Assembly (NCBI GenBank): GCA_018335335.1
Contig: JAGXKG010000007.1
Location: forward strand, 1-62,795
Direction of reading: 5' to 3'
Length of the DNA: 62,795 nucleotides
Source of the DNA: Candidatus Thorarchaeota archaeon
GTDB taxonomy: Archaea > Asgardarchaeota > Thorarchaeia > Thorarchaeales > Thorarchaeaceae
The first letter of the stretch is position 1, and each line of letters begins with the position of its first letter. Under the pieces are notes generated by a model. It ran no database searches. It worked only from the letters and a program-made list of their open reading frames with translations, and was not told where the DNA came from. This document shows positions 12,198 to 27,506 of this stretch, piece by piece. Both the position numbers and the translations under genes were made by a program.

Positions 12198-15100
12198 TCA
12201 CATTATTCTAAATGAATCTTGGCCGTCTAAATGGTCCAAGATTTCAACCGAAATAGCTCGGTATCTAGAACGTACTGAATATCTATATTTCCTGATTAAT
12301 ACAAGCCCCACTATAACTTCAATCCCGATGATTGCTATCCAGCCTATGGACCAAAGGGTGTTACCAGGCACACCGGTTGTTCTACGAACCTCTACTGTGT
12401 AGGGCCCTATGGACATGTTTTCAACATCAGATAGCAACGTAATTTGGTAGCTCAAATCGCCCTCTGACCTGGGGGCTGTGACAGCATATGATATTCTACC
12501 GTCTTGACCGGTAGTTATGTCCTCGGAGGTGCTACCATTAAGGTTGATGGTGATATCTCTATTTATGATTGCACGGCCTTCTGTATCAACGCATCTACCA
12601 CTAATGGTAAAATCTTGGCCTGGTGCTACTCGAGAGGGGGTATTCGAATTGAATGAAAAATCAATGAAAATATGAAGTGACGATGTTTCTTCAGCAGATG
12701 ATGGTGTAAACAACTCTCCACCAGGATACTCGGCATGCAGAATGAAATAACCGCTTTGAGTCCATGATTCAGGAATCGTGATTTGTAAGGTTACGAGATC
12801 TACCGTATTAATCGAGTAGTTTGACAGGAAAGTCGAATTCAAGTATACCATAACAGTAGCATCCGGTATCAATCCTCCATCAGCATCATGGAGACTGATT
12901 CTCGCTGTGAAATTCTCTCCTGGAAGGAGGCTCCTGTCGGTAACAAGTTCAACTCCAAGTTCTGAAGGAATCTGAACTGTAATAGACCACCTTTCGACAG
13001 GACCAATAATTTCGTAATTAGGGTCACCAATTTCAGCGAGAATCAGGTAAATCCCAATTTCCGTGTCCTGATTGCTCGAAAGTGTAATTTCGAAAGCACC
13101 ACTGGCGTCTGTTATAGCAGAAGTTCCAGTGGAAGTACCGTTTGCAGTAAGGAATACAGAAAGATTTGCAATGGGACCAATCCCGTTTGTTATTACTCCA
13201 GGAACGGTGATGCTTTCTCCCCGCACGATACTGAAAGTAGATTGTTCATCCAAGTCAATCTGTACTCTATCCCAAACTGATAGTGCCTGCTCACCAGTTG
13301 CTGCTTGTTCATACGCTTCACTCGGCCGAACAAAATGCATCTGATATGTTGTGTTGCCTGCAGTCCAATTCCATGGAAAGGTGTATTCGATTTCGAAATA
13401 GCCCGTAACAGCATCCTCAACTGTAGTAGAACCGACAAGAATACCTCCAATATACAGTTCTACGTCATATCCCGTCATTGCAGTTCCGTTTGCAAACGTC
13501 AGGTTCCCTGAAAATGTACGGGATTCGTTCAGGTAGACGGTGGAGTTAGAGACAGTTCCTGTAATATCAACCGGTATCTGCTCTATACTGACTGCCACCA
13601 TAGACGAAGAGCCAGATGTGATGTAGGCTTCTGAAGGTGTGCAGTTCGCAAAGAAGTAGGTTATACCAGTGGGTACAGAAAGATCAACTTGAAATACTTG
13701 CCCAAATTCGCCATCATCGTTTGTAACAAGAGTGAAGAGAAGCTCTTCATCTTGGCCATCAACAACATGATCCCAGTAGATTTCCACCGTGGCGCCAGCA
13801 TATGACGTACCATTGTCTAATGTGGCAGTTCCAGAAACGTTGAGATATTCGGTGAGGTAGACGGGGTTTGGGATTGCACTAAAAGTCCACTCTATAGTGT
13901 ATCTACTTATGTCTAGGGTGATGGGTGTAGTGGAGTTGTAATCGGCAATCCAATTATCACTCGACCAGTACTGAACGACTATATCATGATCTCCAGATTC
14001 AGTTGAGCCCGGAATCTGCCAGTCGATGGAAAAGGTTCCATCAGCTGCTGTCGTTCCCGTCTCCACCAAGATTCCATCAAATAGAACCTGCACAGGAGCA
14101 TTTCCATATGCTTCGTCAGGTTCTAAGTCCCATGATAGATTGCCGGTTATCGTTACAGTATCAGTAGGATGGAATGTGTAATTCCCGGTATCGAAGGTGA
14201 CGATGGTTGGCCACTGCTCCAGCGTTACTGATTCATGAGTGCTTTCAATAGAAGAGATGAATAGTGTACCAGAGTAATTGGCAAATACGTCAATACCAGT
14301 CCAGATTGTGTCTTCTTCCATTTTGGAATAAGAGAAACTGAATGAACCGTCAGGACCAGTAGTACGATTGGCTAAGAGGACAAGGGTTCCATTGTCCCAC
14401 CAGATTTCCACATATGCATTTGACACTCCAGATGAATTATGAAGAAATGTCAAGGTTCCGTTGAAGTCCAGTGTCTCGTTCAGGTAGACAGGATTAGGTG
14501 AGACAGAAAGGGTAAGTGCTGTGGAGTACTTGTGAGCAGTAACAACGAGATCTGAGGTCGTTGCATTTGCTACTAATGGATCAGCACTTGTATAGTTGCA
14601 TTTGAAATAGTAATCTCCAGGCCCCTGTGGTGGAACTTGGAACTCGTGCATATAATTGAATCCGCCCGTACTGTTTGTCACTGCTGTAGTAAGAAAAGCC
14701 CAGTGTGTTCCGGTCCAATTGTAGATGTTAACAGTCTCACCTTCGAGTGCGGGTGACCCTCCAGAGTAAGTCAAATTGCCCTGAATCACAAGGTCCTGAT
14801 CAAGATAAACAGAAGATACTACATCCATACTGAATTCGGGGGCATAGAGAACGAGCTCAATATCGAATCCTGGAGCAGATGTTGCATTATCCCAAAGGGC
14901 TACACTGTTGTTCGATTCAGCCCAGACTGTGACTGTAGCGGGCTCATCTTTGGAAACTGAGAGATTGTAATAGTAAACATATCCCCCGGTATCATTTGTT
15001 TGTACAGATGGAAAGATTTGCACTGTGCCATTGTTCCAATCCCAGAATATCGTAACATTTTGTCCTCCAATAGGTGTACCATTGGTTTGATATGTCAGAT

Positions 15101-18100
15101 AGCCAGAAATTTCAACTGTTTCGTTTAGATAATAGGAACTACTATTGGTAGTGCAGGTTAGATCTAATTGATAGAGCTTCAGGAGACGGGTTCGGTTAGG
15201 TGACTGAGCACTTTCCCACAATGCATTGCTGCTCGTGTATTGACTCCACAGATATACATATCCAAGTTCGTCATTGGTTGTGAGATTATATAGAAAGCTG
15301 AACCCCCCAGTGCTGTCAGTTGTCTTGTTGAAAAGGTAGACATCGGTGGTATTCGCATAGAAGACCGTAATCGTCTCACCTGCAATAGGGGCTCCATTTT
15401 CAACAAATGTCAATGTACCCGAAAATTCGATTACTTCATCCAGATGGTATTCGGTTGCATTTGTATTTCCAGTTAGATTGAGTTGATACAACTTAAGGGT
15501 TAGGGGATCTAGTACAGCAGTTGCGTTATCATAGAGCCTCGACGAGGAAGTGAAATTCACATCGACATTCACCGTGGAAGGTCCATCGCTTGGGGTTAGA
15601 TTATAGTAGAAGTCATAGTTTCCAAAATCATCCGTTGTTACATTAAAGACTTGTATTGTTCCGTTATCCCAGTGAATATAGACAATTGTATCGTTAGCTG
15701 GAGTTCCATTGACAGTCAGAGTACCGGAGAGATGTGCCGTCTCATTAAGATAGTATTCCGTACTATTTGAGGACACAGTGATCGACGAGTCATAATTGGT
15801 TACTTCTTGCAGAATATGGGTAGATTCGTTTCCGGCTATGGCGGGCGAAGGGGCACTAACATTTGCCCATACTTCTGCAGTACTGAGCTCGTGATAGAAA
15901 GGTATGGTATAGTCATATGAATATGTACCAAGAATTCCAGTATATAGAGCGGTTAAGTTGTAGGTACCTGTGCTATTGCGCCACCAAACAGTCAAATGGG
16001 TGTTTTCAAGCGGTTCTGCAATCTCGGGAAGATACACAGAGCCATTGATGGTTACGGTCTCAAGAAGGTAGACGGGATGGGGGTTTGTTTCAATAGATAT
16101 CACTAGCTCCCACCGTTTTACTGTGATAGAAAGATTCTCTGAGTGACATGACTCATATTCAAGAGTGGGCGAATCGAACTCGACCCAGTAGGTGACCTCG
16201 CCTTCATAGCCCGCTGATACGTTGTAGTTGAACTCGTAATAGCCATCAGTGCCAGTTGAAGTGGTATTCACCTTGGTTGTGTCGGTCCCATTCTTCCACC
16301 AGAGGCTGACATTGTATCCCTCAAGCCCACTCCCATTGATTGCATTTTTGAGACTCCCATTTACAGTCAGTATTTTCCAAATATGCACAGGTTCAGGAGC
16401 TTGTGGGTCGGATTCGATACTTAGATTTGTTAGACCGCTCTTGACTTCAATATTGAAAGTAACACTCCAATTGCCGTCAATCAAATTATATGGTGAAGTC
16501 CAATTTACATTTGCTGAGAAATTACCAGTGGATTGGTCAGATGGAATGGTATAGTCGTACGAGAAACCGCCAGAGCTGTTAGTTGTTGCAGTATCAATCT
16601 CTATATCGTCAAAGAATATTCCTATGTCTTCACCTGTAAGTGCAGTGCCATTTAGGAGATGTAGAACTCCTTCATATTCAATTGTGCTGCCTCTATAGAC
16701 TGATTGTGGAGAAACAGTTAGACTGAAACCAACCCGCCCCAAAACGGTTACAGTTGAATTATCTTCAGATCTTGCGGGCAAAAGCACAGGATATCCTTCT
16801 TCGGTGTATTCTCCAGCATACTGTGCCCAGACAGTATGATTGCCAGCCGTCATTCTGAGAGTATCTAGGGGGTCCACATAGATATCCTCTTCATAGGTGC
16901 CATCAGACTGAATTGTAGCATTAGCATACCATCCTTCGTCCCACATAATCTGCATCTGATCATTGTCGAGTGTACTGCCATCAACTGGTTCACCGTCTCG
17001 TGTCATTACACCGTGAACATGTATCGTATCTTCCCAGTAGGCGGTATAGTTGTCTAAACCCAGTTTCAGGTTCATTTCAACAGTTTCACTGATAGCAAAA
17101 CCGTTCTCTGCTTGAGCAGGAGACGTTGGGCAGAGTGGGTCGGGCTCTCCCGTTGCATAAACTGAAGTGTAGTTCGTTATGGAGAAAGAGCTTCCATGCC
17201 AAGTTGCGGATATATTGTGAGCTCCTGTACTCGCGTTACTTGGAAACGTGTAGGTGATATTTGCCAAAGGCAACTGGGAGCCTTGTTCTATCGTTGAGTT
17301 TCCGATATACACATCATCGGTATTATCATAGAACTGAATTGTCTCAGGAGCACTAACAGGTTGATCCTGGACCACAAGCAGCGAGCTCAGATTGAATGGT
17401 TCCCCAATGATAGCCCAGGGCTGGAATGAACTTGGCCAGACCCACAATTCAACATCGCCTTGGCCTGTATTTTCAGGAATATCCGTAACTCCAAGGTCAC
17501 CTGTCAGGGGAAGGGGTACAACCTGAATCCATTCACCACCCCCACCTGCTGTGGGAATATAAACTTCTGACCAGAATATCATATGTTTCACTTTGACAAC
17601 ACGGCGACCATCTTCGGCATCCCCAACCGCATATCCCGCTACCATTCGTGCAGGTATATCGAGTTGTCTCATGAAGACAGAGTATGCGGTAGCGAAATCC
17701 ATCGGGAGACCACCACCACGTTCAAGGAACCAGTCAGTGACTTCTCGCCCTTCTTCGGGTCGTTCCTGGTATTCGTCTGGTCCAATCATTAGTTCAAAGT
17801 TGTTCCTGAAATACAAGTCAACAGCCATTGCCTTGTCATAAGCATCATCCCCAACATCTTCGAATTGGGAGACGTTGTCAATCACCCTTTGCGTCAAATC
17901 TACCCCGTCTAAAGTAGAATATAAGGAGCTCACATCAGCAGGGGCTGAGGTGCCAGGCAGAGCATCATTGGAAATACGATCAATGTCCTGATTTGTGTAT
18001 GTGATATTGTAACTTACGAGAACATTCTCACCCGTGGTGCCTGAAAGAAGGGGGCTGAACAGTACGGTTCCGTATTCATCTATCTCCAAATCATATTCCC

Positions 18101-18707
18101 GTAGTCTATCACGGGGGTAGGTTCGAAATGAATCCTCGACAATCTTCACTTCAGGAAACAGAGAAGGCAGTTCTATGCTCCCAACATTCGGTCCCACAGT
18201 TACATTAAGGAATACACGATAGATTGTATTGTTCTGAGCTTCTGCTTCTTCTTGGGTTATTAGAGTAAGAGCTTCTTGGGAATCTAGACTCTTGCTCCAA
18301 CTAGATCCACTATAGCTGTCATAAGCGGTTTTCCGCCATAATTGAGCTGGGTTCTGCGGCTCTACAGCGAATAATACATCTTCAAGATGATCTGTCAAAT
18401 TATCAGGTAATTCCTGATCCATTGGGACATCCGTATAGTTGACATCATCAAACCAATTGGTTCTTCCACCAGCCCAATTCAAATCATAGGGCCACTCTTC
18501 CACTTCATCATATTCCTCGTGTGGATTTTGTGTGCGGACATTTCCGGTCTGTACAAAATAAAAGGTGGTCAATGCCCAAGCTAGCGTTGCTAGTAAGAAC
18601 ATGGTGCTAATCAGTGTGACCAAACTCATCCTTCTGCGAGTTACTTTCTTTGTAGCAGCACTCAACTGGTGGACCTCACATAATGCAGTTCTTACTGATT
18701 CCATCAA
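12198..18707 (-). CDS. Giant surface protein with degenerate transglutaminase-like domain and 15 Ig-like repeats
   Basis: The 2169-residue protein has an N-terminal membrane helix (MSLVTLISTMFLLATLAWAL), an extracellular transglutaminase-like region (about 290-400), about fifteen Ig-like beta-sandwich repeats and a C-terminal membrane helix (about 2115-2137) with a short basic tail. The transglutaminase fold signature is clear (FLERGGGLPMDFATAY, RQLDIPARMVAGYAVG, FWSEVYIP), but the catalytic Cys, His and Asp positions read P335, I377 and V397. N-x-S/T sequons are very dense, suggesting heavy N-glycosylation. It heads the operon with the MoxR module. The start is TTG at 18707 or ATG at 18704; neither has a strong ribosome site. 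Confidence 0.85.
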   Translation of the reverse strand: MMESVRTALCEVHQLSAATKKVTRRRMSLVTLISTMFLLATLAWALTTFYFVQTGNVRTQNPHEEYDEVEEWPYDLNWAGGRTNWFDDVNYTDVPMDQELPDNLTDHLEDVLFAVEPQNPAQLWRKTAYDSYSGSSWSKSLDSQEALTLITQEEAEAQNNTIYRVFLNVTVGPNVGSIELPSLFPEVKIVEDSFRTYPRDRLREYDLEIDEYGTVLFSPLLSGTTGENVLVSYNITYTNQDIDRISNDALPGTSAPADVSSLYSTLDGVDLTQRVIDNVSQFEDVGDDAYDKAMAVDLYFRNNFELMIGPDEYQERPEEGREVTDWFLERGGGLPMDFATAYSVFMRQLDIPARMVAGYAVGDAEDGRRVVKVKHMIFWSEVYIPTAGGGGEWIQVVPLPLTGDLGVTDIPENTGQGDVELWVWPSSFQPWAIIGEPFNLSSLLVVQDQPVSAPETIQFYDNTDDVYIGNSTIEQGSQLPLANITYTFPSNASTGAHNISATWHGSSFSITNYTSVYATGEPDPLCPTSPAQAENGFAISETVEMNLKLGLDNYTAYWEDTIHVHGVMTRDGEPVDGSTLDNDQMQIMWDEGWYANATIQSDGTYEEDIYVDPLDTLRMTAGNHTVWAQYAGEYTEEGYPVLLPARSEDNSTVTVLGRVGFSLTVSPQSVYRGSTIEYEGVLHLLNGTALTGEDIGIFFDDIEIDTATTNSSGGFSYDYTIPSDQSTGNFSANVNWTSPYNLIDGNWSVTFNIEVKSGLTNLSIESDPQAPEPVHIWKILTVNGSLKNAINGSGLEGYNVSLWWKNGTDTTKVNTTSTGTDGYYEFNYNVSAGYEGEVTYWVEFDSPTLEYESCHSENLSITVKRWELVISIETNPHPVYLLETVTINGSVYLPEIAEPLENTHLTVWWRNSTGTYNLTALYTGILGTYSYDYTIPFYHELSTAEVWANVSAPSPAIAGNESTHILQEVTNYDSSITVSSNSTEYYLNETAHLSGTLTVNGTPANDTIVYIHWDNGTIQVFNVTTDDFGNYDFYYNLTPSDGPSTVNVDVNFTSSSRLYDNATAVLDPLTLKLYQLNLTGNTNATEYHLDEVIEFSGTLTFVENGAPIAGETITVFYANTTDVYLFNKTTDSTGGFSFLYNLTTNDELGYVYLWSQYTSSNALWESAQSPNRTRLLKLYQLDLTCTTNSSSYYLNETVEISGYLTYQTNGTPIGGQNVTIFWDWNNGTVQIFPSVQTNDTGGYVYYYNLSVSKDEPATVTVWAESNNSVALWDNATSAPGFDIELVLYAPEFSMDVVSSVYLDQDLVIQGNLTYSGGSPALEGETVNIYNWTGTHWAFLTTAVTNSTGGFNYMHEFQVPPQGPGDYYFKCNYTSADPLVANATTSDLVVTAHKYSTALTLSVSPNPVYLNETLDFNGTLTFLHNSSGVSNAYVEIWWDNGTLVLLANRTTGPDGSFSFSYSKMEEDTIWTGIDVFANYSGTLFISSIESTHESVTLEQWPTIVTFDTGNYTFHPTDTVTITGNLSWDLEPDEAYGNAPVQVLFDGILVETGTTAADGTFSIDWQIPGSTESGDHDIVVQYWSSDNWIADYNSTTPITLDISRYTIEWTFSAIPNPVYLTEYLNVSGTATLDNGTSYAGATVEIYWDHVVDGQDEELLFTLVTNDDGEFGQVFQVDLSVPTGITYFFANCTPSEAYITSGSSSMVAVSIEQIPVDITGTVSNSTVYLNESRTFSGNLTFANGTAMTGYDVELYIGGILVGSTTVEDAVTGYFEIEYTFPWNWTAGNTTYQMHFVRPSEAYEQAATGEQALSVWDRVQIDLDEQSTFSIVRGESITVPGVITNGIGPIANLSVFLTANGTSTGTSAITDASGAFEITLSSNQDTEIGIYLILAEIGDPNYEIIGPVERWSITVQIPSELGVELVTDRSLLPGENFTARISLHDADGGLIPDATVMVYLNSTFLSNYSINTVDLVTLQITIPESWTQSGYFILHAEYPGGELFTPSSAEETSSLHIFIDFSFNSNTPSRVAPGQDFTISGRCVDTEGRAIINRDITINLNGSTSEDITTGQDGRISYAVTAPRSEGDLSYQITLLSDVENMSIGPYTVEVRRTTGVPGNTLWSIGWIAIIGIEVIVGLVLIRKYRYSVRSRYRAISVEILDHLDGQDSFRIM
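12400..17076 (-). repeat. Fifteen degenerate Ig-like coding repeats
   Basis: Within the giant protein, units of about 95-110 residues recur with the pattern VYLNETxxxxGxLT, then an NGTP turn, VxIxWDNGT, and TGGFSYxYN. I can delimit fifteen units by eye. The most alike are the central units near 14.8-15.8 kb (YQLNL and YQLDL openings), suggesting recent internal duplication there. The domains resemble bacterial/archaeal Ig-like carbohydrate- or adhesion-type modules and probably form a stalk. Confidence 0.7.
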
Positions 18708-21424: not shown

Positions 21425-22402
21425 ATGAAGATGGGTGTTGTACAGAGGAGAAAGAGAGCAAAAGAACTCGCCCAAGAGTACGGGTATCGAAAATACATGA
21501 TAGAGCGATATCTGAAACTGTGGGGTGAGGATGAAACGCTGGAGTTCATCAAATCCTGTGAACAAGAGATTAGAACCGCAATAAGAGCAAACGAATTGAA
21601 AGCACCTATTGGCGAGCTCGTGCGCAGATTGGAGAACAAGGATGTCGAGCTCGAGGATATTGAATGGCTAGAAGAGGGTTTCTATGCAGATTTCAAGGGG
21701 TTCTCAGCTGGAGCCATATTTGAACATCTGATTGGCCTCTACTACGTGCAGGGTGTACCGTCAATGACGGTTACGAAGATTCTCAATCCACAACCCGGAG
21801 AGACAGTCTTTGACCTAGCTGCAGCCCCAGGTGGGAAAACGACACACATTGCCCAGCTGATGAGGAATGAGGGGCAGGTAGTGGCAATTGAGAAAGACAA
21901 GTTGCGAATGATAAGTCTGGAAAGCAATTTGATGCGCTGCGGTGTGAAGAATACGTTGGTACTCAGAGGAGACGCAAAGAAGCTAGCTGAGATTCCTCTT
22001 ACCCCAGACAGGATATTACTTGATGCCCCCTGTTCAGGCGAAGGATTGATTCCTATAGATCCGACAAGAAAGACGAGTAAGACCATGGCAGATATTCGGT
22101 ACTGTGCAACAAACCAGGGCAAGATGCTAGATGCAGCTATTGATGCCCTCGGAAAAGGGGGTATCATTGTCTATTCTACTTGTTCTATAGCTCCTGAAGA
22201 GAATGAGTTCGTCATTGATGATTTGCTGAAACGAAGAGAGGATTTAGAGATTATCCCGATTGATTTGGAGTTTGGTGTACCCGGATATACTAATCCATAC
22301 AATATTCAAATGAATGAAGATTTGTCCAAGGCTCGACGTTTGTTGCCGCATAAACATCAGACGGAAGGTTTCTTTATGTGTAAAATGCGGAAGGTGGAAT
22401 AA
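21425..22402 (+). CDS. NSUN/RsmB-type RNA cytosine-5 methyltransferase
   Basis: A 325-residue enzyme of the NOL1/NOP2/Sun family, which methylates cytosine C5 in tRNA or rRNA. Motif I is FDLAAAPGGKTTH (129-141), motif IV LLDAPCSGEG (release Cys C203) and motif VI VYSTCSIAPEENE (catalytic Cys C253). The N-terminal helical domain precedes the Rossmann fold. Start ATG at 21425 sits behind AAGGAGG. The stop overlaps the start of the next gene, a PUA-like protein, so the pair is translationally coupled and likely acts on the same RNA. Confidence 0.93.
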   Translation: MKMGVVQRRKRAKELAQEYGYRKYMIERYLKLWGEDETLEFIKSCEQEIRTAIRANELKAPIGELVRRLENKDVELEDIEWLEEGFYADFKGFSAGAIFEHLIGLYYVQGVPSMTVTKILNPQPGETVFDLAAAPGGKTTHIAQLMRNEGQVVAIEKDKLRMISLESNLMRCGVKNTLVLRGDAKKLAEIPLTPDRILLDAPCSGEGLIPIDPTRKTSKTMADIRYCATNQGKMLDAAIDALGKGGIIVYSTCSIAPEENEFVIDDLLKRREDLEIIPIDLEFGVPGYTNPYNIQMNEDLSKARRLLPHKHQTEGFFMCKMRKVE

Positions 22403-22947
22403 TGTCACTAGAATTAGCCGAACCAGCTGAATGGAGAAACATAAAACAACAAATCGATAGCGATTTCGGCATCGGAACAGCAGAACAGCTCCGAAAGAAT
22501 CTTCTTCTGGTGAAGATTGATGAGAACTCCAAGCAATCATATTATCTTGTCCCACCCGAATGGGAAAGCCTTCTGGAAGCAGACTTAGATACATACAAGC
22601 CCGAGTTTGGAGGGATTTGGCTTGGGGATATGCAAGAGGGTGAGTTCAGAATCGGGTTACATGTTCTTGATGATCTCTCAGAAATCACTCAAAGCAAGGT
22701 AATTGTCTCTGACATAGGGGCAGAATCCTTTACCTACGGACGCAGCATACTCAAAGAATCGGTCATAACAATCGGTGTAGGATTGGAGAGAGGGCAGAAG
22801 GTAATAATCCTAAGCAATATGGGGGATAATCTTGGCTTTGCCAAGCTGACAATCGATTCCTCAAGAATCGACCTACTTTCGGATGAGAGTCTTGTAGCCA
22901 AGAACCTGGCTGATGTGGGCTGGTATATACGTAAATATACCCACTAA
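22402..22947 (+). CDS. PUA-like RNA-binding protein coupled to the m5C methyltransferase
   Basis: A 181-residue protein. The N-terminal half (EWRNIKQQIDSDFGIGTAEQLRK) resembles a pre-PUA domain; the C-terminal half ends in LGFAKLTIDSS and LADVGWYIRKYTH, in the style of PUA domains. Its ATG shares one base with the TAA of the methyltransferase gene. Inference: it supplies RNA binding in trans for the methyltransferase, whose own C-terminus lacks a PUA extension. Alternative: an independent Nip7-like protein. Confidence 0.55.
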   Translation: MSLELAEPAEWRNIKQQIDSDFGIGTAEQLRKNLLLVKIDENSKQSYYLVPPEWESLLEADLDTYKPEFGGIWLGDMQEGEFRIGLHVLDDLSEITQSKVIVSDIGAESFTYGRSILKESVITIGVGLERGQKVIILSNMGDNLGFAKLTIDSSRIDLLSDESLVAKNLADVGWYIRKYTH

Positions 22948-22969: not shown

Positions 22970-23716
22970 TCATACGAACATATCGCTTGAGGGGCTCTCT
23001 TCGGATTCGATGCTCTTCCGCATCTTCTCGAGCCGCTCGATTTCTTGACTCTCTTCAAGGAGCTGATCTACATCAGCTTTCACGCCATATACATCATTGA
23101 TTTTCTCGAGCATAGTTGCAGCAGCACCTGGGTCAGGGCGACCACGAGTTGCATAGGTCAGTAGTCCAACACCGTTTGCATCCCGCATCTCCAGTTCGGC
23201 TAGAAACAGGGCGAGAGGACCAGCAACAAAAAGACCCTCTTCAAGAATGGGGATAGACCACTTGTCGAGTTGTTCTTTGTATGCAGAAGTTGGTACACAT
23301 CGCATATCGGAGGAATCATCCTCTTTGAAACTTTGATCTAGGCCTCCAATCAGCAAAGACTCATCGAATTGGTTTTCTACAACCCATTCAGCGATATGGG
23401 AAACGAAATTCCACTGCTCATTATTATGTGGCTGAAATCGGGGAACCAAGAAAACCAGGTTCTTCTCTGAATAGAAGTAAATCTCAAAAGGAAGAACCAA
23501 TCGTTCATTTTCCATGGATACGAAAAGAGGTAGCATGTCACTTCGGATAAAACCTACACGTTCTGCTTCCAAGGTCCTCGTGAGATGAGCTGTGCTGAGG
23601 AAACCAACTTCTCCTAGGCCGTGAAAACCACAAATAAATGTAGCATGTTTGGGAACCTCGAAGTCATCTTTAAGCATTATCTCGAACTCGGATTCTCTTG
23701 TACTCACGAAAGCCAT
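22970..23716 (-). CDS. PAC2-family protein (proteasome assembly chaperone-like)
   Basis: A 248-residue soluble protein with PAC2 features: ATFICGFHGLGEVGFLSTAHL near the N-terminus, LLIGGLDQ, PILEEGLFVAGPLALFLAELE, and GLLTYATRGRPDPGAAATMLEKIN. The C-terminal helix is acidic. Eukaryotic PAC2 helps assemble the 20S proteasome; archaeal homologues are abundant and their role is less certain. The gene is convergent with the PUA protein gene and divergent from the SWIM/helicase-like gene. Confidence 0.85.
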   Translation of the reverse strand: MAFVSTRESEFEIMLKDDFEVPKHATFICGFHGLGEVGFLSTAHLTRTLEAERVGFIRSDMLPLFVSMENERLVLPFEIYFYSEKNLVFLVPRFQPHNNEQWNFVSHIAEWVVENQFDESLLIGGLDQSFKEDDSSDMRCVPTSAYKEQLDKWSIPILEEGLFVAGPLALFLAELEMRDANGVGLLTYATRGRPDPGAAATMLEKINDVYGVKADVDQLLEESQEIERLEKMRKSIESEESPSSDMFV

Positions 23717-23964: not shown

Positions 23965-24039
23965 TTTATATATGGAGCACAAAAGACTAATAACTAATAT
24001 CAATAGTTTACAATGATAACTAATATCAATAGTTTACAA
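23965..24039 (+). promoter_or_regulatory. TATA box and 24-bp direct repeat across the start codon
   Basis: TTTATATAT (23965-23973) is a strong TATA box. A 24-base unit beginning ATAACTAATATCAATAG occurs at 23990-24013 and again at 24016-24039, period 26, perfect. Each copy contains the dyad AACTA-7-TAGTT. The ATG of the next gene lies at the junction, and the predicted transcription start falls inside copy one. Either a recent tandem duplication or a two-site operator. Confidence 0.55.
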
Positions 24040-26277
24040 CAAAGGTTGAATGAATCATTGAGCACCCTGAGAGAACTGGAATTCGAACGTACTTCACCAC
24101 GATTACTTGAGGTGTTAAGGCGACAGGGATTAGCTAGACTGACAGAATTCCAGACGAAATCTTTGAAAAAGGGAATTATGAGGGGGACAAGTCAAATCCT
24201 AGTGACAAATGATTATGTTGAAGGATATCAGATTGGGGAGATTGCCCTCCTAAACAGGGTCGCTTCTGATTTCCGTACTCGGGGTATTGTTCTTTGTCCA
24301 CATCCCCATCAAGCAGAGAAACGGCTTCGTTCCGTAGCCCAGAAATGTAGTAGAATGGGAATCGAAATTACCCCAATAATAAGAAGAAGTGACGCAATCG
24401 ATTTGCCAAGAGACATAGGGAGAGTAGTTGTAGCAACATTCCGGTCACTTAGTATAGCCGCACGGAAACAACCATCACTTTGGGAAGATGTAAGCTTTCT
24501 ACTCATAGAGAGGCTAGATCTAATAGGACAACCAAAGCTCGGGGTTCAGCTTGAGACAGCTATTGTGGGAGGAATGGGAAGAATTTCCAACATCCAGTAT
24601 GTAGCTCTATGTCCAGAAGTTGCTGATTTGCCAGATTTAGCAAAGTGGCTAGATGCGTCCATTGTCAGGGACAAAAAGCCTGATGTGAACAGAATATTCA
24701 GTGTGAAGGTGTTCAAAAGCATCACCGAGTCTCTAGCGGACCTATCGCAGTATGTTCACAAAAAGCAGGGACAAGTAATCATTCTTGCACCAGACATTCA
24801 ATCTTCCCAGATATTAGCAGAGCGGCTGACCGGTTTGGATGATAGTGGAACAACACCACATCTTGATTTTGGATTGACACCCGGGCATCGAGATGAACTA
24901 AGAGAACTCTGTATGCGTATAAAGAGGGTTCATCCCCAATGCAATATGACCCAGAGACTAGTGAATGTTCTTAGCAAGGGAGTTGCCTTTTTCCACGAGG
25001 GTGTTGCGAAGAAGCAGAGGAGAGCCATATCTGAGGCATGGGAAGACAAACTGGTACCAGTAATAGTGATGCCTACACGCTTTGCACTTGCCAGCGGCAT
25101 GACAGCTACAGTGGTCTTCTTGATTGGTGTTTTCGCACATAGAAAAGAGGACATTCTGCGGGATGACGAAGAGTTAGTGATGCTTTCAGAATGGCAGATG
25201 AATAACCTATTGCAAGCAGCTGGTAGAGCTAAGCTGGATACGGAAGGTTTCGGAATCCTCGTTGTTGATAATGAGCAAGAAAGGGAGAGGGTCTTGTTGA
25301 AGTATTTCAGAAGAGATGAGGAGGGGAATCTGATGCCACGGCTCGGAGAAGTTGACAGTCTCATGGATAACCCTGAGAACCTTCAGTTCTTGGTATTGGG
25401 GCAGCTTTGCACAACTGATGAGCAACACAGCAGCCCATTGGCAATCATAAATGAAACATTCTGGGCTTCCACAAACAAGACATTCAACCCGAAGGAGGAG
25501 CGTTACGTACCAATAGATGAGATTTCTATTGATACGCTCCTTTCACTACGAGCAACAAAATCCACGCTGGAAAGAGCAGAAGAAATTGGTGATGAAGATG
25601 TCAAAGTGGTTTCGGTAAGTCCATCCAAGATAGAGGGGCTTGTCCATAGCGCCAGCCGCGAGCTCTGGCATTATGTTACACTAAACTCATCCGAGGGTGT
25701 ATCTTGTAGCTGTGAGTCCTGGAAATATCAAGGGATGAAGAATCACAGATTGTGTAAACATCTTGTTAAATTCGCCAACTATGCACTCCATGACGATGAA
25801 GCGGAACCATATACCAACGGGGTTTTGAGACATTCATTACGGGGGCTTGAGACACTTGACGAACTGGAACAGAGCGGCCTTCTGGAGAAAAGTAGTGGGG
25901 AAGTCCGATGTACAGAACTAGGTCGGAGAGCTGCAGCATTAGGAGTTTCGATTGGGGACGCAAGAAGAACCAAAGGGATGATCGAGGACAGTGAAGGCGA
26001 CTTCACAAATACGCTAATTGAACTAGTACAAACCAAAACAGGAGCCAATCCGGAACAACTCAAGAGAATATTGACAGCTGTATTAGAGGACGACAACCAA
26101 GAGGGTATGTATTGTGAGGATGATTACCCCGGCCTCATAGAAAACCATGTAGAGGAGTTGCTCTACGTGAACTCTGTCCTAGAGCAGATGTTAATTGAAG
26201 ACGAAAATGGAATTCTCAAGGAAAGACCAGCTCATTTTGGAGAGAAACTCAGGCGCGCATTATCGGATATCGGTTGA
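24013..26277 (+). CDS. SWIM zinc-finger protein with degenerate Ski2-like helicase core
   Basis: The 754-residue protein follows the order of a Ski2/Hel308-type helicase but its ATPase motifs are eroded. The Walker A position reads VTNDYVEGYQ instead of a GxGKT loop; motif II reads LLIERLDLIG instead of DExH; motif VI reads QAAGRAKL, missing the second arginine. RecA2 framework pieces remain (GVAFFHEGVAKKQRRAI, FALASGMTATVVF). After the helicase part comes a SWIM finger, C565-x-C567-x13-C581-x-H583, then a winged helix-like segment and an acidic C-terminus. Probably a nucleic-acid or protein scaffold rather than a motor. Confidence 0.7.
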   Translation: MITNINSLQQRLNESLSTLRELEFERTSPRLLEVLRRQGLARLTEFQTKSLKKGIMRGTSQILVTNDYVEGYQIGEIALLNRVASDFRTRGIVLCPHPHQAEKRLRSVAQKCSRMGIEITPIIRRSDAIDLPRDIGRVVVATFRSLSIAARKQPSLWEDVSFLLIERLDLIGQPKLGVQLETAIVGGMGRISNIQYVALCPEVADLPDLAKWLDASIVRDKKPDVNRIFSVKVFKSITESLADLSQYVHKKQGQVIILAPDIQSSQILAERLTGLDDSGTTPHLDFGLTPGHRDELRELCMRIKRVHPQCNMTQRLVNVLSKGVAFFHEGVAKKQRRAISEAWEDKLVPVIVMPTRFALASGMTATVVFLIGVFAHRKEDILRDDEELVMLSEWQMNNLLQAAGRAKLDTEGFGILVVDNEQERERVLLKYFRRDEEGNLMPRLGEVDSLMDNPENLQFLVLGQLCTTDEQHSSPLAIINETFWASTNKTFNPKEERYVPIDEISIDTLLSLRATKSTLERAEEIGDEDVKVVSVSPSKIEGLVHSASRELWHYVTLNSSEGVSCSCESWKYQGMKNHRLCKHLVKFANYALHDDEAEPYTNGVLRHSLRGLETLDELEQSGLLEKSSGEVRCTELGRRAAALGVSIGDARRTKGMIEDSEGDFTNTLIELVQTKTGANPEQLKRILTAVLEDDNQEGMYCEDDYPGLIENHVEELLYVNSVLEQMLIEDENGILKERPAHFGEKLRRALSDIG

Positions 26278-26360
26278 CTTTTTACGTGGTAGTTTTGTCA
26301 ACGAAACTGAAGCAGGGTGCACGCTATTGTCCTGCTCTAACATCCCATGGAGAAATGAGC

Positions 26361-27506
26361 ATGAAGCTGTTTGAGTCAGAAGCGAAAGAAATCTTCCGTG
26401 ACTTTAACATGCCCACGCCTAGTAGTGGTCTGGCAAAAACGCCCGAAGGAGCCAAGAAAAAGGCTTCAGAGATAGGCAAGCCAGTTGTAGTTAAAGCACA
26501 GGTTCTTTCGGGTAAAAGAGGGAAAGCAGGAGGTATCAAGTTCGCAGACACCCCTGAAGAGGTTGAAAAACTAGCAGAAGAGATTCTTGCCATGCGAATC
26601 AATGATCTTCCCGTAGAAGCAGTGCTGATAGAAGAGAAACTCGATATCAAGCAAGAAATCTACGCAGGGATAACCATTGATAGGAACAGACGCCAGTACG
26701 TCTGCATTGGCAGTTCTGCAGGAGGCATGTCAATTGAGGAACTTGCTGAAGAAAGCCCCGAGAAAATCTTCAAAACCCATATCAATCCACATCTGGGTCT
26801 TCAACCTTTCGAGGCTCGACAATTAGCTGTTCGAATGGGGTTCAAGGGAAAACAAATCCACAAACTTGCCTCGTTCTTCTTGAAGCTCTGGAAAATCGTG
26901 GAAGAGTATGATGTGGAATTAACTGAGATCAATCCACTGATACTCACCGAACAGGGCGATTTCATCGCTGCAGATGCAAGACTGAATATTGACAATAATG
27001 CTCTATACAGACATCAAGAACTCATAGAGAGTTTGGATAGAGCTCCCTTAGAAGAAAACGAGAGAGAAAGACGCGCAAGGGAGAATGACATGGCATATGT
27101 CGAGTTGGATGGCAATATAGCGTGTATATGCAATGGGGCGGGCCTTACCATGGCCACCCTTGATGCCGTCGCTCTCTATGGAGGTAAGGCAAGCACATTC
27201 CTCGACCTCGGAGGCGGTGCCGATGCAGAACGAGTAGAAAAGGGCATCGAAATAGCTTTGATGTTCGATCAAGTGGAGGCAATACTTGTCAACATCATGG
27301 GTGGCATCACCAGATGCGATGAGGTTGCAAAGGGAATCGTGGGGGCCAGAGAAGACAAAGGAATTGATGTACCGATGGTCATCCGCATGGTTGGAACAAA
27401 TGAGAAAGAGGGGCAAGAAATCTTGGAAAAGGCTGGTATCCCATTCCTGCAAACCATGGAAGACGCAGCCCAGAAGGTAGTTGAGCTTCTAGAGGAGGCG
27501 GAATAG
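26361..27506 (+). CDS. sucC: Succinyl-CoA ligase (ADP/GDP-forming) beta subunit
   Basis: A 381-residue ATP-grasp protein. The family N-terminus [20 protein letters not shown] fixes the start at ATG 26361, 8 bases after GGAG; upstream in-frame codons are not part of the family. ATP-grasp elements include [19 protein letters not shown] and [10 protein letters not shown]. The C-terminal CoA-ligase domain has [12 protein letters not shown] and [13 protein letters not shown]. It catalyses the substrate-level phosphorylation step linking succinyl-CoA and succinate in the TCA cycle. The sucD gene follows with no gap. Confidence 0.95.

Follow-up and report, generated by a model that had tools for sequence, protein, structure and literature searches.

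The window analysed here (a 62,795-nucleotide stretch of a Candidatus Thorarchaeota genome) carries on its forward strand an uninterrupted open frame of 754 codons (24013-26277) whose product combines a Hel308/Ski2-like helicase fold with a SWIM zinc finger, and which we refer to as a pseudohelicase, a designation predicted from the loss of its catalytic motifs (Table 1). Homology favors the TTG at 24058 as the probable true start: the N-termini of orthologues read [M/L]-S-T-L-R-E-L-E, the codon matching this TTG is ATG in two of them (L012 and L024) and TTG elsewhere, and a genus mate (L003) has an in-frame stop just 5' of the homologous start. The apparent ATG start at 24013 is created by a 24-bp direct repeat, ataactaatatcaatagtttacaa, which together with its 2-bp spacer occupies positions 23990-24039, just upstream of the likely start. 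The gene lies within a near-fixed order, HD - CYTH - threonine synthase - Nop2-like - Nip7-like - PAC2 - pseudohelicase - CoA-ligase subunits, based on the comparison of 30 thorarchaeal loci and the window (PAC2 is on the opposite strand, and threonine synthase was assigned by sequence inspection). The window also encodes a 2169-aa protein with a transglutaminase-like core and macroglobulin/Ig-like domains (12198-18707, reverse strand), which is kept at the same place in most Thorarchaeia loci.

Table 1. The pseudohelicase gene, its domains and motifs, and its adjacent genes in the window (domain borders were taken from residue counts and are approximate).
Feature	Positions	Strand	Residues	Basis and remarks
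RsmF/Nop2-type rRNA m5C methyltransferase	21425..22402	+		Pfam 5.8e-61; synteny
Nip7-like/UPF0113 PUA protein	22402..22947	+		profile and synteny
PAC2-family proteasome-assembly chaperone	22970..23716	-		profile and synteny
Pseudohelicase coding sequence	24058..26277	+		739 aa from TTG 24058 (probable start); ATG 24013 is 15 codons upstream
RecA-like domain 1	24133..24687	+	~41-225	NCBIfam Hel308, AlphaFold/Foldseek
Erased Walker A	24205..24228	+	65-72	alignment
Erased motif II	24508..24528	+	166-172	alignment
Erased motif III	24610..24618	+	200-202	alignment; SAT replaced, mostly by xPP
RecA-like domain 2	24688..25317	+	~226-435	NCBIfam Hel308, AlphaFold/Foldseek
Retained motif IVa	24979..25020	+	323-336	G323, H328, G330 and R336 preserved
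Altered motif V	25066..25110	+	352-366	now a conserved M-P-x-x-F-A-[IL]-A-S-G-like sequence
Degenerate motif VI	25204..25227	+	398-405	Q398 and R402 gone; G404 and R405 mostly preserved
Winged-helix domain, first half	25345..25548	+	445-512	S449 and L462 common to Hel308; model helices
SWIM zinc finger	25630..25788	+	540-592	C565, C567, C581, H583; interrupts the winged-helix domain
Winged-helix domain, second half	25804..25947	+	598-645	T634-x-x-G637; model and alignment
Shortened ratchet-like helical domain	25948..26274	+		model and residue counts
CoA-ligase beta-type subunit (ATP-grasp), downstream	26274..27506	+		profile and synteny; real start probably internal

Both sequence and fold place the protein in the Hel308/Ski2-like family, across the two RecA-like domains, the winged helix and the ratchet. 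Residues 29-447 match the NCBIfam Hel308 model NF040935 (5.5e-26), with a score of 90.9 bits against the curated cut-off of 1200, that is, the protein is not a Hel308 equivalog by this model. The window protein also matches the Hel308/Hjm chains of the PDB (2va8, 2e-17; 2zj2, 1.6e-15), and a profile built from the pseudohelicase family recovers the same chains at 1.5e-29. The AlphaFold2 model derived from the family alignment (mean pLDDT 80.3, pTM 0.80) has Hjm and Hel308 as its top Foldseek matches in the PDB (E 5e-26 to 3e-23), followed by Pol theta helicase, Brr2 and Mtr4. These profile and fold matches rule out that the N-terminal half is unrelated to helicases, a challenge that the initial annotation had raised against its own reading. 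A Pfam HemN_C match (E 0.09) was dismissed as chance. Toward the C-terminus, the ratchet-like part counts 72-73 residues vs. 115-119 in Hel308, and the helix-hairpin-helix of Hel308 (domain 5) is absent, with 48 residues past G707 vs. 130-159 in Hel308.

The zinc finger C565-x-C567-x13-C581-x-H583, noticed at the outset from the letters of the sequence, is real. Pfam SWIM (PF04434) matches residues 560-585 at 18.3 bits (E 0.0017; gathering cut-off 19.6), 24 of 26 family members match the same profile at E <= 0.01, and the four CxC...CxH ligands are invariant across 43 aligned relatives. The finger belongs to an insertion of ~110 residues that splits the winged-helix domain, so that S449 and T634 are 185 residues apart vs. 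72-73 in Hel308. The Shu2/SWS1 family is defined by CxC...CxHxxA (PMC6316741), and its conserved Ala is not found in the pseudohelicase, which has C-K-H-[LI]-x-[KR] instead.

Walker A, motif II and motif VI, described as degenerate in the initial annotation, all align to the corresponding motifs of intact relatives, and their loss proved to be conserved. Specifically, the ATP site is altered alike in all 32 aligned thorarchaeal copies, with GKT replaced by E-A-Y, DExH by [DE]R-x-D, and SAT by PP (PEV/PPV, mostly xPP, in the family); K71 and T72 of Walker A, E167 of motif II, A201 and T202 of motif III and R402 of motif VI are missing from every copy, that is, the Walker-A Lys or motif-II Glu of an active Hel308/Ski2-like helicase is present in 0/32. 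Charge is reversed at catalytic positions (Gly/Lys of Walker A give way to Glu/Ala with an extra Asp, and the Glu of motif II to Arg), and the 26-row family alignment shows no variation at D67, E70, R167 and D169 or at the four zinc ligands. Motifs IV and V are rewritten as well (F258, R262, T354, T356, G360 and R366 are missing), a new and invariant loop carries Arg-Arg at 124-125, and Q47, P96, A101, T142, G323, H328, G330, R336 and G404 are columns common to the intact and dead proteins, as are the zinc ligands among those with a SWIM finger. Judged from these alignments, the ATP site is erased throughout the class Thorarchaeia, beyond the window copy alone, and the fact that the substituted residues are themselves conserved points to re-use rather than decay.

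Whole-genome searches (E-values are per genome) recovered an orthologue or fragment in 45 of the 47 sampled genomes of the window's family, in all 13 genera, some of these positives being fragments at contig ends. Full-length thorarchaeal copies scored about 1000-1260 bits, and almost all matches among public sequences were from Candidatus Thorarchaeota. The two genomes without a pseudohelicase (G220 and G226) are incomplete assemblies, and absences are generally soft since the genomes are mostly MAGs. The Nei-Gojobori dN/dS ratio is 0.114 between the window copy and its genus mate and 0.07-0.17 among close orthologue pairs, whose dS reaches 1.25 at most; in their SWIM segment, the two closest copies differ by 0 nonsynonymous vs. 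11 synonymous changes. Low dN/dS and presence in 45/47 genomes thus reveal purifying selection despite the lost catalytic motifs. Alternatively, the gene could be a decaying pseudogene or an assembly artefact, as its erased catalytic motifs and long stem branch might suggest; yet the frame is open in dozens of genomes, the substitutions are identical, dN/dS is low and synteny is kept, and we reject this possibility as exceedingly improbable based on dN/dS, open frames and synteny. A pseudohelicase kept under selection, as initially proposed, is borne out by the fold, the identical substitutions across the class, dN/dS and the invariant zinc ligands. The gene is, as far as motif loss predicts, a retained pseudohelicase and not a decaying gene, also in view of the intact relatives in other Asgard families and of an intact paralogue (G000:C19) in ~30/47 Thorarchaeia (the paralogue and Hel308 counts rest on score thresholds).

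The intact Hel308-SWIM proteins of other Asgard families (L032, L035-L040, L044, L046) have GKT, DExx, a SAT-like motif III and GRAGRP, share ~20-25% identity with the pseudohelicase, and carry the SWIM finger inserted at the same place. The closest relative outside the family, in G042 (family f7), matches over its full length at 299 bits and has intact motifs; all other relatives outside the family score <=134 bits in the whole-genome search. Close homologues with an intact Walker A/DExH, the counter-evidence that the initial annotation had asked to look for, are absent from the class: the intact proteins are either from outside it or a distinct paralogue. In the tree, Hel308 stands apart from the Hel308-SWIM proteins, which all group in a single clade (support 100), and the dead copies are likewise monophyletic, on a long stem. 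The best (free) tree places the intact copies of families f7 and f13 nearest to the pseudohelicase (support 75); joining the latter to the intact thorarchaeal gene instead passes the AU test (p 0.36). This analysis omitted L033/L034 (f3), whose earlier joining with the pseudohelicase was flagged as long-branch. In two f13 genomes (L039/L102 and L104) the intact Hel308-SWIM gene follows Nop2-Nip7-nucleoside phosphorylase; since Nop2-Nip7 come first there as in Thorarchaeia, gene position favors an f13 origin, but the absence of the helix-hairpin-helix is common to the pseudohelicase and the thorarchaeal intact copy. These clues conflict: the pseudohelicase may be orthologous to the intact genes of f7/f13, or it may have arisen by duplication of the intact gene found in Thorarchaeia. 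The two f3 proteins (L033 3163-5343; L034 2729-4930) represent a second Hel308-SWIM lineage, with Walker A and DExx present and motifs III, V and VI degenerate (SDI, GKAGNYKYD); judging from these motifs, it is possibly an independent loss of catalysis.

In Thorarchaeia, the intact paralogue is part of a compact operon (L048 302-6859, that is, G000:C19; also L041-L043, L045, L047, L049-L051) consisting of a ~90 aa protein, a ~780 aa protein without a clear Pfam match, Hel308-SWIM, a ~530-600 aa protein without a Pfam match, and a RadB/Rad51-paralogue-like ATPase (TIGR02237, 6.8e-9). An intact Hel308-SWIM gene also adjoins a RadB-like ATPase in families f6, f9, f11, f12 and f25, a RadB-like gene being near Hel308-SWIM in L035, L036, L040, L044, L106 and L107 of other Asgard families. 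Among the 47 Thorarchaeia, the RadB-like gene (28/47) and intact Hel308-SWIM (~30/47) are mostly co-present or co-absent; the pseudohelicase persists where this pair was not found and, hence, does not depend on it. By analogy, the Hel308-SWIM/RadB-like locus recalls the eukaryotic Shu complex (SWS1-SWSAP1), and it is tempting to speculate, though we hold the idea tentatively and rather doubt it, that the Asgard pair might be an archaeal counterpart of the Shu module, and that in Thorarchaeia one branch of Hel308-SWIM became a class-wide non-catalytic recombination adaptor.

The neighbors of the pseudohelicase could instead hint at an adaptor in RNA or ribosome maturation, tied to the Nop2-like methyltransferase and the Nip7-like PUA protein in the manner of Utp25. 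The order Nop2-Nip7-PAC2-pseudohelicase is found in almost all sampled Thorarchaeia loci, the two f13 genomes mentioned above have a similar arrangement upstream of an intact Hel308-SWIM gene, and the block further includes TruD, L38e and an RNase J-like gene (the last by sequence inspection only). However, the entire block of ~20 genes is conserved, unrelated metabolic genes included, and adjacency therefore says little about function; moreover, the helicases of the Hel308 family act on DNA, and a RadB-like ATPase adjoins the second SWIM subfamily. We thus consider an RNA-maturation role unlikely.

A partnership with the Ski2-like helicase at 43.9 kb, suggested in the initial annotation, found no specific support and was dropped. 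The latter protein is a distant relative of the pseudohelicase (36 bits in BLASTP, over a single short stretch), lies ~20 kb from it in G009 and G021, and occurs in 40/47 genomes; since both genes are part of a block that keeps its order in most of the class and the helicase is this common, their co-occurrence is uninformative. More generally, the pseudohelicase might form a hetero-dimer with, and regulate, an active helicase (canonical Hel308, intact Hel308-SWIM, or the 43.9-kb helicase), given that several such relatives per genome are usual (38/47, ~30/47 and 40/47, respectively) and that Brr2 has tandem active and inactive Ski2 cassettes. Nonetheless, the pseudohelicase (45/47) is more widespread than any candidate partner, canonical Hel308 was not found at 1e-100 in either genome of the window's genus (G000 and G001), the intact SWIM paralogue is missing from many genomes (with incomplete assemblies as a caveat), and no obligate partner emerges, all of which makes such a hetero-dimer improbable.

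We favor, with reasonable but far from full confidence, the explanation that this dead Hel308-SWIM descendant is a non-catalytic scaffold or adaptor that binds nucleic acid. That is, a catalytically dead offspring of an Asgard Hel308-SWIM helicase would have been kept in essentially all sampled Thorarchaeia; it still has the fold of two RecA domains, the winged helix, the zinc finger and several of the motifs on the nucleic-acid side. The former ATP pocket would be shut by salt bridges between D67/E70 and R167 and, so closed, would neither bind nor hydrolyse ATP, although the absence of ATP binding is not proven by motif loss because the enzymatically inactive, Ski2-like C-terminal cassette of Brr2 still binds nucleotide (PMC8220420). 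The protein might then grip single-stranded or structured nucleic acid like a fixed clamp, with no motor action; contact would be made by the winged helix, by what is left of the ratchet and, in the RecA groove, by motifs Ia, Ib and IVa together with Arg-Arg 124-125. A partner could dock at the SWIM finger. The path of the nucleic acid also involves motifs IV and V, and their rewriting could mean that binding is weakened or lost. Under a second hypothesis, the protein would hold its partners together by means of the RecA core, the winged helix and the SWIM finger, with no nucleic-acid contact at all, consistent with these two motifs having become new conserved sequences, the missing helix-hairpin-helix and the inactivity of the Brr2 cassette (PMC8220420); we find this improbable too, as the winged helix and the invariant Arg-Arg loop persist along with the positions of motifs Ia, Ib and IVa, and the intact relatives are helicases. 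As for the pathway of the favored nucleic-acid adaptor, we lean slightly toward recombination/repair over RNA/ribosome maturation given that the protein belongs to the Hel308 family and that its intact SWIM sister adjoins a RadB-like ATPase; the neighbors, a mix of metabolic and RNA/translation genes and not repair genes, speak against it. The initial view that selection maintains a pseudohelicase whose zinc finger looks functional is supported, and the nucleic-acid adaptor role that it proposed, which we infer as well, is plausible.

Pseudohelicases, Hel308 and SWIM fingers are each already known; neither a Hel308-SWIM family nor a class-wide dead member turned up in the open-licence literature that we searched. 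There are few documented cases of a pseudoenzyme fixed throughout an archaeal class, and the existence of active sisters makes helicase loss and re-use traceable in sequence. Further, Thorarchaeia are Asgard archaea, relatives of eukaryotes, and Asgard SWIM proteins together with Rad51-paralogue-like ATPases are relevant to how the recombination mediators of eukaryotes arose.

Among known systems, Hel308/Hjm is the best structural match, sharing two RecA domains, a winged helix and ratchet-like helices, but in the pseudohelicase the ATP site is erased, a SWIM finger sits in the winged helix, the ratchet is short and the helix-hairpin-helix is gone. The intact Asgard Hel308-SWIM proteins (e.g., L032, L039, L048) have the finger at the same place and fall in the same clade (support 100), yet retain GKT, DExx, SAT and GRAGRP at ~20-25% identity. 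Shu2/SWS1 shares the CxC...CxH zinc finger, with a Rad51-paralogue-like gene at the locus of the intact paralogue as a further likeness, and differs in that the alanine of CxHxxA is Lys/Arg in the pseudohelicase. To our knowledge, SWS1 has no helicase domain. Precedents for pseudohelicases as adaptors are Deinococcus radiodurans PriA (PMC4504706) and Utp25 of the small-subunit processome (PMC9539457), which likewise retain the helicase fold and have lost the catalytic motifs; these, however, belong to other families, are without a SWIM finger, and have a tested binding or cellular role. Finally, the C-terminal cassette of Brr2, a third such precedent, is Ski2-like and inactive as well, but it is part of a tandem protein, binds nucleotide and is without a zinc finger.
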